Shown piece after piece: positions 6,513 to 64,000 of a DNA stretch of 64,000 bases. Both the position numbers and the translations under genes were made by a program. The stretch is from Tersicoccus solisilvae (lineage in GTDB: Bacteria; Actinomycetota; Actinomycetes; Actinomycetales; Micrococcaceae), in contig NZ_BMJI01000001.1 in the NCBI RefSeq assembly GCF_014643255.1, positions 62,001-126,000 on the forward strand, written 5' to 3'. The notes under the pieces are model-generated. The model saw nothing but the letters and a program-made list of their open reading frames with translations. It did not search any database and had not been told where the DNA came from. Within the stretch, counting starts at the first letter, position 1, and each line of letters starts with the position of its first letter.

Positions 6513-7724
6513 ATGAAGGCAGTCGTGTGGCACGGCGAGGGCGACATCCGACTGGACACGGTCGACGACCCGACGATCCAGCAACCGACCGACGCGATCG
6601 TGCAGATCACCCGCAGCGCCATCTGCGGCACCGACCTGCACTTCATCCGCGGCACGATGAGCGGCATGGCCGAGGGCACGATCCTCGGGCACGAGGCCGT
6701 CGGCGTCGTCACCGAGGTCGGCTCGGCCGTGCGCCGCTTCTCTCCCGGCGACCGGGTGCTGATCTGCTCGACGATGTCCTGCGGCGCGTGCCGGAACTGC
6801 CGTCGCGGGCTGACCGCCCAGTGCGACGTCGCCAACCCCAACGGCCCGCTCGCGGGCACGTGCTTCTTCGGCGGCCCGCAGCCCACCGGCCCCGTCGACG
6901 GGCTGCAGGCCGAGTACGTGCGCGTGCCGTGGGCGGTCAACACGCTGATCCCGCTGCCGGAGAACGTCTCGGACGACGCGGCGATCCTGCTCTCGGACAT
7001 CTTCCCGACGGCCTGGTTCGGCGCGGAGCTCGCCGGCGTGAACCGCGGCGACACGGTCGCCGTGCTCGGCGCCGGCGTCGTCGGCCAGTTCGCCATCGCC
7101 TCGGCGTTCCGGCAGGGCGCGGGCCGGGTCATCGCGGTCGACGGCCTCCGCTCACGCCTGGACATCGCCCTCGGGCAGCATGCCGAGGTGATCGACTTCA
7201 ACGCCGAGGACCCGGTGCCGGCCATCCTCGAGTCGACGCAGGGCATCGGGGTGGACGCCGTGATCGACGCCGTCGGGGTCGACGCGCAGCGGCCGTGGGC
7301 CGGACCGGCGAAGCGGGCGGGCGATGAGCAGGCCGAACAGTTCGACGCCGAGCGGTCCCAGGTGGCGCCACAGACGAACGTGCAGGGCGAGAACTGGGTC
7401 CCCGGGAACGCGCCGTCGCAAGCGCTGCAGTGGGCCGTCTCCGCGGTGGCCAAGGGCGGCCGGCTCGGCGTCATCGGCGTCTACCCGCCGGCCATGACGT
7501 CGTTCCCGATCGGCGAGGCGATGAACAAGAACCTCATCGTGAAGCTGGGCAACTGCAACCACCACACGGTGACCCCGCCGCTGCTGGACATCGTCGCGAC
7601 CGGCCTGGTCGACCCGACCGCGCTGATCACCCAGCAGGAGCCGCTGACCAGCGCCGTCGAGGCCTACGAGTCGTTCGACCGGCGCGAGGAGGGCTGGCTG
7701 AAGACCGAACTGACGGTAGGCTGA
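6513..7724 (+). CDS. Zinc-dependent alcohol dehydrogenase (formaldehyde-dehydrogenase-like MDR)
   Basis: Medium-chain dehydrogenase of 403 residues that would oxidise an alcohol or aldehyde with NAD(P). The catalytic-zinc region (AICGTDLH, GHEAVG) and the structural-zinc cysteine cluster (STMSCGACRNCRRGLTAQCD) are present, and the Rossmann fingerprint is VLGAGVVGQFA. An insert at about 255-300, ending before VAKGGRLGVIGVY, is typical of the glutathione-independent formaldehyde dehydrogenase subgroup. GGAGG at 6500-6504 supports the start. It is a clear paralogue of the gene at 54914, and both share an upstream palindrome. The true substrate is unknown. Confidence 0.88.
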   Translation: MKAVVWHGEGDIRLDTVDDPTIQQPTDAIVQITRSAICGTDLHFIRGTMSGMAEGTILGHEAVGVVTEVGSAVRRFSPGDRVLICSTMSCGACRNCRRGLTAQCDVANPNGPLAGTCFFGGPQPTGPVDGLQAEYVRVPWAVNTLIPLPENVSDDAAILLSDIFPTAWFGAELAGVNRGDTVAVLGAGVVGQFAIASAFRQGAGRVIAVDGLRSRLDIALGQHAEVIDFNAEDPVPAILESTQGIGVDAVIDAVGVDAQRPWAGPAKRAGDEQAEQFDAERSQVAPQTNVQGENWVPGNAPSQALQWAVSAVAKGGRLGVIGVYPPAMTSFPIGEAMNKNLIVKLGNCNHHTVTPPLLDIVATGLVDPTALITQQEPLTSAVEAYESFDRREEGWLKTELTVG

Positions 7725-7782
7725 CCAACCCGCACGACGACCGCACCCGGGCATGGAACGCATGCCACCACCGAGGAGGACC

Positions 7783-9240
7783 ATGCGCTTCGATCCCCAG
7801 GCACCGGCCACCGGCCCGATGCCCACCTACGAGGACCGCGGCGACGCCGGCTACCACCGGTCCCTCGGCAGCCTGCAGATCCAGATGATCGCCATCGGCG
7901 GGGCGATCGGGGTGGGACTGTTCCTCGGCGTCGGGGCGCGCCTGGCCGCCGCCGGCCCGGCGCTGATCCTCGCCTACCTCGTGGTCGGCGTCGTCGTCTA
8001 CCTGATGATGCGCGCGCTGGGCGAGATGGTGGTGTACCGGCCGACCACCGGCGCCTGGGTCTCCTACGCCCGCGAATTCGTCTCGGACCGGCTGGCGTTC
8101 ATGACCGGGTGGATCCACGTGACCCTCGCCGCCGTCGCCGGCGTGGCCGAGATCGCCGCCCTCGCGGTGTACGTGCAGTTCTGGTGGCCCGAGCTTCCCG
8201 GTTGGATCCCGTCCCTGGTGGCGGCGCTGGCCATCGTGGGCTGCAACCTGCTCTCGGTGCGCTGGTTCGGGGCCATCGAGACCACGGCGTCGTCCGTGAA
8301 GGTGATCGCCATCCTGCTGTTCCTGGCCGCCGGCATCGTCCTCGTGGTGGCCGGCGACGTGTTCCACGCACCGACCACGGCGTCCGTCTCCCACCTGTGG
8401 GCGAACGGCGGGTTCGCGCCGAACGGCCTGCTGCCGCTGCTCGTCGTCCTCGGCGGCGTCGTGTTCTCGTTCTCGGCGATCGAGACGGTCGGCGTCTCCG
8501 CCGGCGAGGCCGCCGACCCGGAGCGTTCGATGCCGCGGGCGATCAACTCGGTGGTGCTGCGCATCGGGCTGTTCTACATCGGCTCGCTGATCGCCCTCTC
8601 GGTGCTGCTGCCCACCGACCAGTACTCGGGCGACGAGTCGCCGTTCGTCACGGCGCTGGCCTCGCTGCACATCCCGGGTATCGCCGGGATCATGAACTTC
8701 GTGGTGCTCACGGCGGCCATCTCCGGCGTCAACGCCACGCTGTACTCGAGCGTGCGTGTGCTGCGGAACCTGGCCGCGCACGGGCAGGCGCCGCGGGTCA
8801 CCGTGCGCGTCTCCTCGCGCGGCGTGCCCGCCGGGGCGCTGTTGAGTGTGCTCGGCGTGTACCTGCTCGGCATCGTGCTGATCTATGCGCTGGGGGCGTC
8901 CGCCGCGTTCGAGGTCATCCTCAGCGCGTGCGCGGTGTTCATCCTCTTCGGGTGGATCTCGATCCTCGTCTCGCACCTGGGCTACCGTCGCGCGGTGGCC
9001 GCCGGGCGCGCACACGCCGTGCATTTCCGGCTCCCGGGCGCACCGGTCACGACCTGGGTGGCCCTGGCGTTCCTGGTCGGCGTCGCGCTCTACGTCATGT
9101 TCGACCAGGCGAACCCGCACTGGTACTACAGCCTGATCGCCGGCGTCGTCATCCTGGTGGCGACGAACGTCGGTTACGAACTCTCGCGCCGGCACGTGCA
9201 GCGCCACGGCCTGCCCGAGCTCACCGGCCACCGGCGCTGA
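7783..9240 (+). CDS. Amino-acid permease, AAT (APC superfamily) type
   Basis: A 485-residue, 12-helix amino-acid transporter of the AAT family that includes the GABA and aromatic amino-acid permeases. The N-terminal signature LQIQMIAIGGAIGVGLFLG, the MMRALGEMVVYRPTTGAWVSYAREF block and the helix-8 region FSAIETVGVSAGEAADPERSMP are all intact. ATG at 7783 is favoured over the upstream ATG at 7753 because GAGGAGGA at 7773-7780 lies directly before it. It follows alcohol dehydrogenase 1 by about 58 bases, so the two may be co-transcribed. The specificity is not resolved. Confidence 0.88.
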   Translation: MRFDPQAPATGPMPTYEDRGDAGYHRSLGSLQIQMIAIGGAIGVGLFLGVGARLAAAGPALILAYLVVGVVVYLMMRALGEMVVYRPTTGAWVSYAREFVSDRLAFMTGWIHVTLAAVAGVAEIAALAVYVQFWWPELPGWIPSLVAALAIVGCNLLSVRWFGAIETTASSVKVIAILLFLAAGIVLVVAGDVFHAPTTASVSHLWANGGFAPNGLLPLLVVLGGVVFSFSAIETVGVSAGEAADPERSMPRAINSVVLRIGLFYIGSLIALSVLLPTDQYSGDESPFVTALASLHIPGIAGIMNFVVLTAAISGVNATLYSSVRVLRNLAAHGQAPRVTVRVSSRGVPAGALLSVLGVYLLGIVLIYALGASAAFEVILSACAVFILFGWISILVSHLGYRRAVAAGRAHAVHFRLPGAPVTTWVALAFLVGVALYVMFDQANPHWYYSLIAGVVILVATNVGYELSRRHVQRHGLPELTGHRR

Positions 9241-58551: not shown

Positions 58552-59007
58552 CTACAGTCCGACCCATTCACTGGTGCCGTCCGGGAACCACTGCTGCTTC
58601 CAGATGGGCACCCGTGCCTTGACCGTCTCGATCAGGGCCTCGCACGCGGCGAAGGCCTCGGCACGGTGGGGGGCGGCGACGGCGGCGACGAGCGCGACGT
58701 CGCCGACCTCCAGCTCACCGACGCGGTGGGCGGCGGCGATCCGCACCCCCGGGTGCGCGGCGGCCACCTCGGCGGCGACCTCCGCGATGACGGCTCCGGC
58801 GGCCGGATGAGCGGAGTAGCTCAGCCGGCGCACCGCCCGGCCGCCGTCATGGTTGCGGATGACCCCGCTGAAGCTGACGACGGCACCGCTGCGGTCCGAC
58901 CCGGCGGCAGCGACGAGGGAGGACAGGTCCAGCGGACGATCGGTGACCTCGGCGTGGACCACCGTGCTCTCCACGGTGTCGCCCGCGCGAGGGGACTCAG
59001 TGCTCAT
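58552..59007 (-). CDS. moaE: Molybdopterin synthase large subunit MoaE
   Basis: A 151-residue protein that with MoaD inserts sulfur into precursor Z. Family blocks are GAVVSFSGVIRNHDGGRAVRRLSYSAH, RIAAAHRVGELEVGDVALVAAVAAPHR, and the C-terminal KARVPIWKQQWFPDG with the catalytic Lys. Its start overlaps the moaB-like gene stop by 11 bases. MoaD is not in the window. Confidence 0.93.
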   Translation of the reverse strand: MSTESPRAGDTVESTVVHAEVTDRPLDLSSLVAAAGSDRSGAVVSFSGVIRNHDGGRAVRRLSYSAHPAAGAVIAEVAAEVAAAHPGVRIAAAHRVGELEVGDVALVAAVAAPHRAEAFAACEALIETVKARVPIWKQQWFPDGTSEWVGL

Positions 59008-59530
59008 GCCGGCCCTCCAGCTGACCGCAGAGGTGCTCGAGGATCGGGTCGAGGACCGCGATCCCGTCCCGCACGCCGCCGACCGAGCCGGGCAGGTTGA
59101 CGACGAACGTGCGCCCGACGGTGCCGGCGACCCCCCGGCTGAGCACCGCCGTCGGCGTCGACGAGGCCCCGCGGGCCGCGAGCGCGTGCACCACCCCGGG
59201 CAGCCGGCGCTCGAGCAACGGCTCGGTGAGCTCCGGCGTGTGGTCGGTGGGGCTGAGCCCGGTACCGCCGGTGGTGACGACGACGCGCGGATGGCCTATG
59301 AGGGCGGCGAGCAGCGCGTCGCGGACGGGCTCGCCGTCGGCGACGACCACGGGCTGGGGCACGGCGAAACCGCGGTCGCGCAGCCAGCCGACCAGGGCGG
59401 GCCCGGTGGTGTCCTCGGCCTGCCCGGCGGCGGCCCGGGTGGAGGCGACGATGACGACGGCGCGCCGGTGCGCGGTGCCGGCGTCGGTGGCGTGGGGCCG
59501 CGCCGTTCCGGGCGTGCCGTGCTCGCTCAT
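58997..59530 (-). CDS. moaB: Molybdopterin adenylyltransferase-type protein (MoaB/Mog family)
   Basis: A 177-residue MoCF_biosynth-domain protein that binds molybdopterin, probably adenylating it. The motif [17 protein letters not shown] is diagnostic, and [14 protein letters not shown] follows in the C-terminal part. Start and stop are each overlapped by the neighbours (ATGA with moaC). MoaB and Mog cannot be told apart from sequence alone. Confidence 0.9.
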
Positions 59531-60027
59531 CGGGTCCAGTCCCCGCTCTTGCCGCCGGACTTGGCGAGCACCCGGGTGGTCTCGATGGTGGCGCCCTTGT
59601 CCGCGGCCTTGATCATGTCGTAAAGGGTCAGGGCGGCGATCGAGGCGGCGGTGAGCGCCTCCATCTCGACGCCGGTGACCCCGCGGGTGGTCACGCGGGC
59701 CTCGATGGCGACGGCGTCGTCGTCCAGGGGGGCGAAGTCAACGGTGACCTTGGCCAGCGGCAGCGGGTGGCAGAGCGGGATCAGGGCCGGGGTCTGCTTG
59801 GCGGCCATGATCCCCGCGACGCGGGCGACGGCCAGCGCGTCGCCCTTCGGCAGGTCCCCGGTCATGATCGCGTCGCGCACGGCGGTGGTGGTGCGCAACA
59901 CGCTCTCGGCGACCGCGGTGCGGGTGGTCTCGGCCTTGCCGGAGACGTCCACCATGTGCGCCGAACCGTCCGCACGCAGGTGCGTCAGGGTGGGCGCGGC
60001 GGTCCGGGGGCTCTCGGCGGGGGGCAT
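59527..60027 (-). CDS. moaC: Cyclic pyranopterin monophosphate synthase MoaC
   Basis: A 166-residue enzyme of early molybdenum-cofactor synthesis. The core [49 protein letters not shown] and [26 protein letters not shown] is fully intact. The product is expected to act with MoaA, encoded elsewhere. It starts the moaC-moaB-moaE operon. Confidence 0.95.
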
Positions 60028-60068
60028 GGCGTCATCGTCTCACGCGTCGCCGGGGCCCGTCCTCTCGC

Positions 60069-60138
60069 GCCAGCTCGCCAAGAGACGTTCCATCCGGGCC
60101 GATGTCCGGTGTCTTCGAGCATCTATTGGCGAGCCGGC
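60069..60138. repeat. Palindromic intergenic element, copy 1
   Basis: Left arm 60069-60090 (GCCAGCTCGCCAAGAGACGTTC) is too long to print fully against its partner; its right arm 60117-60138 is its imperfect reverse complement, with a 26-base loop. Two similar elements lie at 60746-60818 and 62182-62252. Confidence 0.75.
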
Positions 60139-60147
60139 GGAAGGGGT

Positions 60148-60705
60148 TCAATGGACGAGCCGGTAGCGCAGATGGACGACGTCGTCGACCCGCTCGGTGC
60201 CGACGAGGGTGAAGTCGCGGCGCAGCCCCGGCGGGGAGAACGGGGTGCCGCCGCCGACGACGACCGGCACGAGCAGCAGCTGCACCTCGTCGACGAGACC
60301 GGCCGTCAGGGCCGCCGCGGCGAGGTGGGGACCGCCGATGGAGACGTCGGCGGCGGCGGCGGTGACGATGGCGCGGACGGCGTCGGGATCGAAGGTCCGC
60401 TCGATCCGCGTGCGCTCGGTCTCGACGGTGGCGAGCGTGGTCGAGTAGACGACCTTCTCGGCGGCCTGCCAGATGCGCGCATAGTCGGCCGTGATCGGGG
60501 AGCCGGCGGCGAAGTCCGCGTCGGTCTCCCAGACCCGCATCGTCTCGTACATGCGTCGCCCGTAGAGGTAGGTGCCGATCGGGCGTTCGAGCTCGTTGAC
60601 GTAGGCGTGCACGGCCTCGCTCGGCGCCGCCCAGTCGAACCGGCCGTCACGGTCGGCGGTGTACCCGTCGAGGGAGGCGATCGACGAGTAGATCAACTGG
60701 CCCAT
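60148..60705 (-). CDS. RibD C-terminal/dihydrofolate-reductase-like reductase
   Basis: A 185-residue protein of the DHFR-like RibD_C family (MGQLIYSSIASLDGYTADRDGRFDW, LYGRRMYETMRVWE, ADVSIGGPHLAAAAL, LRRDFTLVG). These proteins are NADPH-dependent reductases with unknown substrates. It sits between the moaC unit and moeA, flanked on both sides by the palindromic elements, so it is probably an independent unit. Confidence 0.82.
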   Translation of the reverse strand: MGQLIYSSIASLDGYTADRDGRFDWAAPSEAVHAYVNELERPIGTYLYGRRMYETMRVWETDADFAAGSPITADYARIWQAAEKVVYSTTLATVETERTRIERTFDPDAVRAIVTAAAADVSIGGPHLAAAALTAGLVDEVQLLLVPVVVGGGTPFSPPGLRRDFTLVGTERVDDVVHLRYRLVH

Positions 60706-60826: not shown

Positions 60827-62140
60827 TCAGTCGAGCGGGGTGACCGTCACCGGGGTTCCGACGCCCAACGGTTCCGCCGTCACCGGCAGGTGGACGAGCA
60901 CGTCGGCCGTCGCGGCGGCGTGCAGCAGGTGCGAGCTCGGACCGCCGACCAGGCGGACCACCGGGCCCCCGGCCGTCGCGGTCAGCGTTCCACGGCGGAT
61001 CTGCTGCTTGCCCGCAAGCGGCGTCACCGGTTCGGCGAGGGCAGCTCGGAAGCGCGGCCGCGCGGGTGCACCGAAGCGGGCGGCGAGCGCCGGCCGGAGG
61101 AACATCTCGACCGAGACCAGCGTGCTCACGGGGTTGCCCGGGAAGCCGAGGAACGGCACGCGGGAGCCGCCGACGTCGAGCAGACCGGCGCCCTGCGGAC
61201 CGCCCGGCTGCATCGCGACCGACCAGAAGGCCACGCCGCGGCCACCGAGCGACTGCTTGACCACCTCGAAGGCGCCCCGGCTGATGCCTCCGCTGCTGAG
61301 CACCAGGTCAGGCGCCGCGTCCCGGACGTCCGCGTCCAGGGCGCTCAGCAGCGCGGCGGGCGCGTCGGCGACCAGCCGGGCGGTGACCACCTCGGTCCCG
61401 CAGGCGTTCAGTGCCGCGCGCAGGATGGCGCTGTTGGCGTCGTGGATCTGGCCCGGCCGCAGCGGCAGACCGGGTTCCACCACCTCGCTGCCGGTGCTGT
61501 AGAGCAGCACGCGCAGGGGACGGCGGACGGCGACGTCGGCTCGGCCGAGGGCGGCGAGGACACCGGCGGCTGCCGGGGTCACGCGCGTGCCGGCGGTGAG
61601 CGCGACGGCGCCGCGCGCCAGGTCCGACCCGGCAGGCCGGACGAACCGGCCGGGCTCGGTGGCTGCGGCACCGGCGGTGAACCGGACACGGGCGCCGGCC
61701 GGCGGCTGTGGGTCCGCGTCGGTGAGCCAGTCGGGGAACCGCGCCGGGTCGGTCTCCTCGACGGGGACGACGGCGTCGGCACCGGCGGGGATCATCGCGC
61801 CGGTCATGATGGGCGCGGCGGTGCCCGCCGGCAGCGGTGGCGGGGCCGCCCCGGCCGGGACGGCCCCGGTCAGCGGCAGCGTCGGTTCGCCGTCGTCGTG
61901 TGCGTCCCGGAGCTCGTCCGCCCGCACGGCGTATCCGTCCATCTGGGCGTTGGCGAAGGGGGGCAGCTGGACGCCGGCGACGACGTCCTCAGCCAGTACC
62001 CGACCGCCGGCCTGCTCGAGCGGGACGAACCGGGCGTCGAGGGTGATCCCGTCGAGCAGCCCGAGCACCGCGGCGGCGTGCTGCTCGACGGTTCGGGCGG
62101 CGTGGGGCCAGGGATCCTGGCCGGTGGGTGCGGGAGTCAT
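60827..62140 (-). CDS. moeA: Molybdopterin molybdotransferase MoeA
   Basis: A 437-residue enzyme that inserts molybdate into adenylated molybdopterin. Landmarks are PPFANAQMDGYAV, GAMIPAGADAVVPVEET, LSSGGISRGAFEVV and PFLGFPGNPVSTLVS. The ATG at 62140 fits the family length; the longer frame upstream is spurious. It lies in the same molybdenum neighbourhood as moaCBE and modBA. Confidence 0.95.
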   Translation of the reverse strand: MTPAPTGQDPWPHAARTVEQHAAAVLGLLDGITLDARFVPLEQAGGRVLAEDVVAGVQLPPFANAQMDGYAVRADELRDAHDDGEPTLPLTGAVPAGAAPPPLPAGTAAPIMTGAMIPAGADAVVPVEETDPARFPDWLTDADPQPPAGARVRFTAGAAATEPGRFVRPAGSDLARGAVALTAGTRVTPAAAGVLAALGRADVAVRRPLRVLLYSTGSEVVEPGLPLRPGQIHDANSAILRAALNACGTEVVTARLVADAPAALLSALDADVRDAAPDLVLSSGGISRGAFEVVKQSLGGRGVAFWSVAMQPGGPQGAGLLDVGGSRVPFLGFPGNPVSTLVSVEMFLRPALAARFGAPARPRFRAALAEPVTPLAGKQQIRRGTLTATAGGPVVRLVGGPSSHLLHAAATADVLVHLPVTAEPLGVGTPVTVTPLD

Positions 62141-62181: not shown

Positions 62182-62252
62182 GCCAGCTCGCCAATAGACG
62201 TTCGATCTGACCCCGATTCAGGCCTCGATGCGACATCTCTTGACGAGCTGGG
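62182..62252. repeat. Palindromic intergenic element, copy 3
   Basis: Left arm 62182-62206 and right arm 62227-62252 pair over about 22 of 25 positions. The left arm is nearly identical to that of copy 1 (GCCAGCTCGCCAA shared). Confidence 0.75.
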
Positions 62253-62265
62253 GTGACGGAACGGG

Positions 62266-62580
62266 TCAGGTGGTCAGCTTGAGCCCGATCACGCAGCCGA
62301 CGATGCCGGCGACGAGCAGCAGCCGGACGATCGAGGCGGGTTCGGCGCCGGTCGCCATGCCCCAGACCACCGTCAGCGACGCGCCGATCCCCACCCAGAC
62401 GGCATACGCGGTACCGGTCGGCAGCTCGCGCATCGCCCACGCCAGGCCGGCCATGCTGCCGATCAGGCCGACACCGAAGACGACGGTCGGACCCAGCTTG
62501 CTGAAACCTTCCGACCGGCCGAGGGCGGTGGCCCACACGGCCTCCAGCACTCCCGAGATCACCAGGACGATCCACGACAT
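62266..62580 (-). CDS. gdx: Small multidrug resistance protein, probable guanidinium exporter
   Basis: A 104-residue four-helix SMR protein. The active-site Glu lies in SGVLEAVWATALGRSEGF, and WVGIGASLTVVWGMATGAEP is typical of the SugE/Gdx subgroup. Gdx proteins export guanidinium in exchange for protons. The guanidine-III riboswitch-like leader directly before the start (62595-62636) supports this role strongly. ATG at 62580 has AGGAGG upstream. Confidence 0.88.
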   Translation of the reverse strand: MSWIVLVISGVLEAVWATALGRSEGFSKLGPTVVFGVGLIGSMAGLAWAMRELPTGTAYAVWVGIGASLTVVWGMATGAEPASIVRLLLVAGIVGCVIGLKLTT

Positions 62581-62594
62581 CACGCACCTCCTGC

Positions 62595-62636
62595 GGGCCG
62601 TCTTGTCGCTCGCCGGGTACGGCACCCCTCGTCCGG
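62595..62636 (-). promoter_or_regulatory. Guanidine-III (ykkC-III) riboswitch
   Basis: Read on the minus strand, the leader begins CCGGACGAGG, continues GCCGTACCCGG and, after a short spacer, has GACAAGACGGC. These are the conserved blocks of the guanidine-III aptamer solved from Thermobifida fusca, in the right order and spacing. Its 3' end lies directly before the AGGAGG of the gdx gene, so ligand binding can control access to the ribosome site. No computed covariance model was run. Confidence 0.85.
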
Positions 62637-62723
62637 TGGCCCGGTCTCGGGCTTCTCCTCAGGCTCGCACGCCCCGATCACCGCGGCAACGCGTGGTGGC
62701 CAGTCTCACCACCGGATGACCCG

Positions 62724-63545
62724 TCACCGCCACCGCACGGCGAGCCGGCCGGCGAACCGTGCGGCCACGAGCACGACGAGGTAGATCGCCACGAGCATGA
62801 GGCACACGCCGAGCGCCTGGTCCGGTCGCGCCGAGTTCAGCGCGAGGGAGATCTGCAGTGGGAGGGTCCGGGTCTGCCCGTCGATGCTGCCGGCGAAGGT
62901 GATGGTCGCGCCGTACTCCCCCAGCGAGCGCGCGAACGCCAGCAGGGTGCCGACCAGGATGCCGGGAGCTGCCAGGGGGACGGTGATGTGCCGGAGGATC
63001 TGCCCGGCGGACGCGCCGCAGGTCGCGGCGGAGAGCTCGAGCTCCTCGTCGATCCCCGCGAGCGCCGTCATCACGGAGACGACGAAGAACGGCAGCGAGA
63101 CGAACACCTGCACGATGACGACGGCGGCCGGACTGAACCCGACGCGGATGCCGACGGCGTCGAGCAGGGAGCCGAACAGGCCGAACCGGCCCCAGAAGAA
63201 CAGCAGCACGAGGCCGGAGACGACCGGGGAGAGCACGAGCGGGACGAGCAGGGCGCCGCGGGCCAGGTCGACGGCGGTACCGCGCAACCGGGTCATCAGC
63301 ACCGCGACGGGCACGCCGAGCAGCACGCAGACCCCGGTGGACAGGGCGGCGGTCGCGAGCGACAGGGCGAGGGAGCGCTGCACCTCGGGCTCGGCGAGCA
63401 GGCCGGGCAGCTGCGCCCACGGCACGTTGAGCAGCAGCCCGGCGATCGGCCCGAGCGTCAGGGCAAGCGCGACCGCGAACGGCACCCACAGCCACGTCGG
63501 CGTCGTCGCACGCTGCAGACGGCGACCGTGGAGGCGACCGCTCAC
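62724..63545 (-). CDS. modB: Molybdate ABC transporter permease ModB
   Basis: A 273-residue permease with six helices and the ABC coupling motif EYGATITFAGSIDGQTRTLPLQIS near the C-terminal third, preceded by SAATCGASAGQILRHITVPLAAPGILVG (EAA loop). It moves molybdate or tungstate with the binding protein ModA encoded just upstream. GTG at 63545 is the start; its ribosome site is weak. Confidence 0.9.
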   Translation of the reverse strand: MSGRLHGRRLQRATTPTWLWVPFAVALALTLGPIAGLLLNVPWAQLPGLLAEPEVQRSLALSLATAALSTGVCVLLGVPVAVLMTRLRGTAVDLARGALLVPLVLSPVVSGLVLLFFWGRFGLFGSLLDAVGIRVGFSPAAVVIVQVFVSLPFFVVSVMTALAGIDEELELSAATCGASAGQILRHITVPLAAPGILVGTLLAFARSLGEYGATITFAGSIDGQTRTLPLQISLALNSARPDQALGVCLMLVAIYLVVLVAARFAGRLAVRWR

Positions 63546-63591
63546 GCGTCCCCGCGGGCGAGGTCGCGTGCGGAGCGGGAGTCTGCCGGCC

Positions 63592-64000
63592 TCACGACGA
63601 GGCGTCGAACCCGGCGCGGGCGAACACCGCGCGCGCCTCGGGCCCGGTCAGCCACGCCTCGAACTCGGCGGCGGCCGGCCGCGCGGCGCCGTCCTTCGTC
63701 AGCGCGACCGGATACGGGTTGCCGCCGGCGTCGGGCAGATCGATGACGCGGACCTTGTCCCCGGCGCTGGTGGCATCGGTGCGATAGACCAGCGCCGCCT
63801 GCACCTGGCCCGAGGTGAGCTTGGTGAGCGCGCCGCGCACGTTCTCCTCCTCGGTCGTCGCCGACGGCGTCACCTTCTCCTTCGACAGGACCTCCCGGCT
63901 GACCCGGCCGCAGGGGACGTCGGCCGCGCAGATCGCGGTCCGCACACCGTCGCGCTCGAGGTCGGCCAGGGACGTGATGCCGGCCGACGGGTCGACGGCG
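63592..64000 (-). CDS. modA: Molybdate-binding protein ModA, C-terminal part (cut by window edge)
   Basis: The last 135 residues of a periplasmic-type binding protein, running off the window. Visible blocks are TSLADLERDGVRTAICAADVPCGR (oxyanion-binding region), LTSGQVQAALVYRTDA and the C-terminal GPEARAVFARAGFD. The first Tyr of the ligand pocket is in LVYRTD. It is 46 bases before modB, so they form one operon. Confidence 0.88.
   Translation of the reverse strand, partial: AVDPSAGITSLADLERDGVRTAICAADVPCGRVSREVLSKEKVTPSATTEEENVRGALTKLTSGQVQAALVYRTDATSAGDKVRVIDLPDAGGNPYPVALTKDGAARPAAAEFEAWLTGPEARAVFARAGFDASS

Follow-up and report, generated by a model that had tools for sequence, protein, structure and literature searches.

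Which signal switches on the sole SMR gene of Tersicoccus solisilvae, and does its position among molybdenum cofactor genes have any bearing on its control? For the window analyzed here (the whole stretch of 64,000 nt), a first-pass annotation had proposed a guanidine-III riboswitch on the minus strand in front of this gene, gdx, and had named a search with the guanidine-III covariance model as a means of refuting it. This search was strongly positive. Rfam cmscan matched RF01763 (Guanidine-III) at 62657–62592 (minus strand) with 66.3 bits, compared to a gathering score of 36 bits, and the alignment covered model positions 1–67 of 67. Since the E-value was 2.7e-12, a chance match is ruled out. 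The runner-up Rfam family within the same 10 kb reached 21.6 bits, which is under its own threshold, and the 3.34 Mb genome contains no RF01763 match besides this aptamer. With its 5′ end at 62657, the aptamer is 66 nt long and carries the invariant guanidine-III core (CGGACGA, GUACCCG, and (AC)AAGAC). The blocks CCGGACGA, GUACCCGG, and GCGACAAGAC were found in that order, as had been claimed from the letters alone. The leader had also been described as 42 nt ending at AGGAGG; it does abut AGGAGG, but CCGGACGA to the base before AGGAGG measures 44 nt. Likewise, aptamer and gdx are real in the stretch that had been marked out (62266–62636), but this stretch begins at the pseudoknot strand CCGG, so that hairpin P1 (62652–62639) was left out. 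The parts of the aptamer are as follows.

62592..62657, minus strand: guanidine-III riboswitch aptamer RF01763, full length (cmscan; single genome match)
62639..62652, minus strand: hairpin P1, GCCCG/CGGGC (Rfam alignment)
62633..62636, minus strand: pseudoknot 5′ strand CCGG, partner 62616–62613 (98-sequence alignment)
62597..62623, minus strand: P2 stem-loop, GCCGU 62623–62619 with ACGGC 62601–62597 (compensatory changes in the alignment)
62600..62609, minus strand: conserved strand GCGACAAGAC, belongs to the ligand core and is proposed to pair with the start region without ligand (alignment; complementarity)

The fold was examined in an alignment of 98 distinct guanidine-III cores. The second pseudoknot strand, CCGG at 62616–62613, sits within the P2 stem-loop. 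When P2 and the pseudoknot were written out, standard pairs occurred in 91.6% of the cells, and the covariation score was 0.255, compared to a shuffled mean of 0.068 and to values of 0.015 to 0.066 when the partners were slid out of register. Pseudoknot cells were paired in 99.7% of cases, with the outer pair being CG in 88, GC in 5, and UA in 3 sequences, and five P2 pairs showed changes on both sides. The H-type pseudoknot with P2 is hence backed by compensatory changes, whereas the GCGACAAGAC strand is largely invariant. In the Rfam alignment, the P2 of the window RNA itself has one mismatch (U-C). The aptamer is a full-length covariance match to the class represented by the Thermobifida fusca structure 5NWQ (RF01763; PMC5696562), with which it shares the invariant core, the H-type pseudoknot, the position before an SMR gene, and a nearby Shine-Dalgarno sequence. 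The latter begins at the last aptamer base in the window, whereas in T. fusca it is 16 nt away from the aptamer (PMC5696562). The window RNA is an ordinary and very well supported guanidine-III riboswitch of a known class, and we have high confidence in its identification as a switch controlling gdx. Such an arrangement is, judging from the gene order in relatives, commonplace in Actinomycetota: among the 80 closest Gdx homologues (loci from named genomes, position read in the sequences printed), 73 have the aptamer core just upstream of gdx.

Between the putative promoter and the coding region the following elements were found.

62684..62689, minus strand: −35-like TTGCCG, 17 nt from the −10-like hexamer (a reading of the sequence; congeners similar)
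62661..62669, minus strand: extended −10-like element TGC-GAGCCT, directly before P1 (present in three congeners)
62587..62592, minus strand: Shine-Dalgarno sequence AGGAGG (sequence)
62266..62580, minus strand: gdx, SMR-family guanidinium exporter (predicted), 104 aa, ATG start (PF00893; Gdx-Clo 6wk5; sole SMR gene of the genome)

The first base of AGGAGG is the last base of the aptamer, and the ATG at 62580 follows 12 nt past the final aptamer base. In the mechanical list of open reading frames the frame starts from GTG 62625 and thereby crosses the aptamer; the true gdx start is the ATG. A scan under the strict TATAAT consensus rule found no promoter, which is not unusual in high-GC actinobacteria. 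Of 82 relatives, 44 have the pattern TGN[TG]ANNNT no more than about 60 nt ahead of the core, compared to 3.2 expected, and most of these sites end 20–30 nt from the core at a near-fixed spacing. This sequence pattern suggests an own extended −10 promoter with a transcription start at P1 or directly beside it, and a predicted 5′ UTR of about 74 nt beginning at about 62654.

In order to deduce how the switch might act, we compared the leader with what is known of the class, of which a 2025 review counts 237 unique representatives, mainly from Actinobacteria (PMC12186494). Crystal structures show an H-type pseudoknot in which a third strand makes a triplex in P2. For the unliganded state the authors, who in 2017 called the functional mechanism “less well established”, proposed that the third strand comes loose and that the ribosome binding site is covered by competing structures (PMC5696562). 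Translational control is the view of the literature and fits the anatomy of the leader; the likely mode of action here is a translational ON switch that may also stabilise the mRNA. The general mechanism of the class is already known, and we infer binding, induction, and the OFF state for this organism. In such a scheme, rising guanidinium would turn on gdx translation through the riboswitch. Without guanidine, the GCGACAAGAC strand would leave the P2 groove and pair with the start-codon region; in the window, GCGACA (62609–62604) would pair with UGUCGU (62579–62574) in a hairpin that holds the AUG and the Shine-Dalgarno sequence. Guanidinium binding would fix the GCGACAAGAC strand in the triplex and pseudoknot, so that the start is freed. 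The folded aptamer at the mRNA 5′ end may in addition shield the transcript from RNase.

The evidence for a masked start came from the window leader as well as from its relatives. In the window, the GCGACA/UGUCGU hairpin, which encloses the Shine-Dalgarno sequence and part of the AUG, has a predicted energy of −15.1 kcal/mol (z −2.39), a value reached by 4 of 200 shuffles. Of 91 switch-bearing gdx genes, 48 (53%) have GTC immediately ahead of the start, compared to 5 of 343 background starts (1.5%), whereby these counts are inflated by shared ancestry. The invariant strand GACAAGAC of the aptamer is complementary to this GUC, and the excess of GUC-AUG points to an OFF state with a hidden start codon. 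Among the gdx genes with a switch, C at position −1 is conserved in 93%, above every Shine-Dalgarno position, and serine at codon 2 is encoded by TCN in 46 of 46 cases. When nine 10-mers were compared, marked complementarity to the start region was seen only for the GCGACAAGAC strand and its neighbour shifted by 4 nt (mean z −1.09). The predicted probability of start-region pairing was 0.38 on average over 85 leaders and 0.77 in the window leader, which has GUG, not GUC, ahead of its ATG. A synonymous-codon test gave no sign of selection for start pairing in codons 2–5 (mean z −0.03). Folding tests of exposure gave an outcome opposite to the expected direction for the Shine-Dalgarno sequence only, whereas for the region −13 to +6 the expected direction was seen in 44 of 85 leaders and the opposite in 6, although blocking bases tends to raise exposure anyway. 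In the window leader, exposure of this region did not rise on folding (0.45 to 0.33). Overall, the start-masking OFF state modelled for the window leader is a tentative proposal that we would place slightly short of an even chance. The same guarded weight goes to its extension over the Actinomycetota, in which the invariant ligand-core strand GACAAGAC would also act as an anti-start strand by pairing with the conserved GUC-AUG-UC initiation region. If this were true, ligand core and start-codon mask would be one strand. For the guanidine-III class, the conserved GUC-AUG context provides an OFF state that can be tested. Such a state is not defined in PMC5696562 or PMC12186494; it may already be contained in Sherlock and Breaker 2017 or in Richards and Belasco 2021.

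Two other pairings were considered and discarded. Pairing of CCGGACGAG with codons 2–12 appears in the best fold of the window leader but shows a weak excess across relatives (mean z −0.32 over synonymous recoding; p below 0.05 in 6 of 86). Masking of the Shine-Dalgarno sequence by a CUCC near P1 was seen by eye in relatives; the window leader lacks the CUCC, and folding gave no general support.

It could also be that the aptamer mainly controls mRNA stability, with the 5′ pseudoknot blocking RNase E scanning and ribosome access hardly being controlled directly. The 2025 review mentions, citing Richards and Belasco 2021, that the aptamer protects from RNase E (PMC12186494), and the aptamer would lie at the very 5′ end, since the predicted transcript start coincides with P1. 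The missing rise of start-region exposure in the window leader points in the same direction. However, the aptamer ends on the first Shine-Dalgarno base, and there is a conserved GUC-AUG complement; we consider an effect mainly on stability rather unlikely, compared to translational control of gdx.

The second part of the question concerns the neighbouring genes, for which profile matches gave the following picture.

63592..64000, minus strand: modA, molybdate-binding, extends past the window (TIGR01256 on the part in the window; full protein SBP_bac_11)
62724..63545, minus strand: modB, molybdate ABC permease (TIGR01581, 200.6 bits)
62186..62248, no strand assigned: long imperfect palindrome, 17 nt past the gdx stop (dispersed genus-specific repeat, about 60 copies)
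60827..62140, minus strand: moeA (NF050098, 395 bits)
58552..60705, minus strand: RibD_C-domain protein, moaC, mogA/moaB-like gene, and moaE (profile matches)

The molybdenum cofactor surroundings had been called an unusual neighbourhood in the first-pass annotation. They are real; however, they represent a genus-specific cassette position, and evidence for a functional link was not found. The order modA-modB-aptamer-gdx-moeA-RibD_C-moaC-mogA-moaE-catalase is present in 3 of 3 species of the genus examined, whereby the matches to some genes in one of them (G001) fell on overlapping open frames. In the stretches retrieved around 29 aptamer loci of other genera within the family and order, a set in which a few loci are cut by contig ends and one weak match is included, modA, modB, moeA, and moaC gave no match, and the same holds for the 80 gdx loci from named genomes. 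Among the closest modAB relatives in other genera, many have modB directly followed by moeA, with neither gdx nor an ABC ATPase gene in between. Judging from this synteny, the switch-gdx cassette of this one genus is placed in a conserved modAB-moeA junction, where it has probably been located since the ancestor of the genus, so that the molybdenum neighbourhood is a matter of cassette position at the genus level. The cassette looks self-contained: a −10 site resembling a promoter element lies at P1, and a long hairpin follows the gdx stop. The synteny comparison led us to drop the idea of a functional molybdenum-guanidine link, and none of the papers listed in a literature search, judged by titles and abstracts, connected guanidine riboswitches with molybdenum cofactor genes.

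Since all three species retain the same strand and gene order, the switch might still control moeA and the downstream molybdenum cofactor genes by read-through and tie guanidine to molybdenum metabolism. Yet a translational switch affects no gene but gdx, moeA begins 125 nt after gdx, a long hairpin lies 17 nt past the gdx stop with a similar one in one congener, and relatives keep modB-moeA without the cassette as well as gdx apart from molybdenum genes. We regard such read-through as very improbable; the molybdenum neighbours would be separate from the control that the switch exerts on gdx.

Some further observations were made in this region. Neither in the genus nor in the closest modAB relatives is an ATPase gene modC adjacent to modAB (62724–64000 in the window; 6725–8396 in locus L031), and none of 77 ABC ATPase-type matches in the genome passed the ModC cut-off. 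That gdx serves as a modC substitute was rejected, as close modAB relatives lack an adjacent ATPase gene with gdx present or absent. The RibD_C-domain reductase (60148–60705) lies between moeA and moaC; in Tsukamurella ocularis and Mycolicibacterium llatzerense, related proteins are encoded directly adjacent to gdx (L109 6706–7641; L135 8343–8915). The palindrome downstream of gdx measures 62–63 bp (GCTCGTCAATAGATG-N32/33-CATCTATTGACGAGC), and a second copy is located in the window at 60073–60134. Its arms gave 122 matches in the own genome (57 forward, 65 reverse), compared to 1 for the reversed control, which amounts to about 60 copies. There were 69 arm matches in one congener and 3 in the other, and one stray match in 36 genomes outside the genus. 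Some arms of congener G001 read TCATTAGATG/CATCTAATGA, a paired change. In 25 palindromes sampled from the genus, most lie 12–60 nt from a gene 3′ end; convergent genes flank 8 of them and divergent genes 1, and no more than 3 overlap called frames. Possibly, the palindromes constitute a genus-specific terminator or REP-like family.

With regard to the exporter itself, whose predicted substrate guanidine is a toxic small molecule, the gdx product matches PF00893 (SMR) with 71.8 bits (cut-off 23.7) and, as judged by the criteria of PMC7695847, contains all five of the residues E13, W16, S42, Y59, and W62. Of these, E13, S42, Y59, and W62 are conserved throughout the SMR family, whereas W16 marks Gdx, with Qac proteins having G or A instead (PMC7695847). 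The top PDB match is Gdx-Clo (6wk5; E 2.5e-19), compared to 1e-7 for EmrE; Gdx-Clo has the same five residues and aligns over residues 1–103, with a length of 105 compared to 104 in the window protein. The best NCBIfam model is SugE with 96.6 bits, under an equivalog cut-off of 126 that is a naming rule and not a functional definition. The window protein belongs to an actinobacterial branch of the Gdx subtype. That the gene encodes a multidrug or quaternary ammonium exporter next to an incidental aptamer match, to which this SugE score and the transport of some hydrophobic guanidinyl compounds by Gdx proteins (PMC7695847) might be taken to point, is hardly credible, since the Qac and Smr models reach even lower scores (47.9 bits at most, cut-offs 160–226), W16 is present, and the aptamer E-value leaves no room for chance. 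The gene thereby gets a firm functional name, a predicted guanidinium exporter under guanidine control, where annotation would otherwise call it a multidrug or quaternary-ammonium pump. The earlier call of a Gdx-type SMR exporter holds by the signature residues, the nearest solved structure, and the switch itself; its wording “guanidinium rather than antiseptics” stands for the Gdx assignment and calls for caution with respect to substrates, as hydrophobic substituted guanidinyl compounds are also moved by Gdx proteins (PMC7695847). Since gdx is the only SMR gene present, the exporter is read as a homodimer.

In a tree of 108 Gdx proteins the three congeners group together, and the nearest relatives are left without resolution. 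Xylanimonas oleitrophica (L063; 81% protein identity) and Isoptericola sp. (L064; 77%) share the aptamer core, the Shine-Dalgarno sequence, and the start with the window, but no molybdenum genes were found there within about 8 kb. Nine relatives (L043, L047, L050, L051, L054, L056, L059, L060, and L062) carry two adjacent SMR genes behind one aptamer, which makes these pairs candidates for heterodimeric exporters, whereas the window has a single gene. At three further loci (L022, L185, and L206), guanidine-III cores precede genes unlike SMR exporters.
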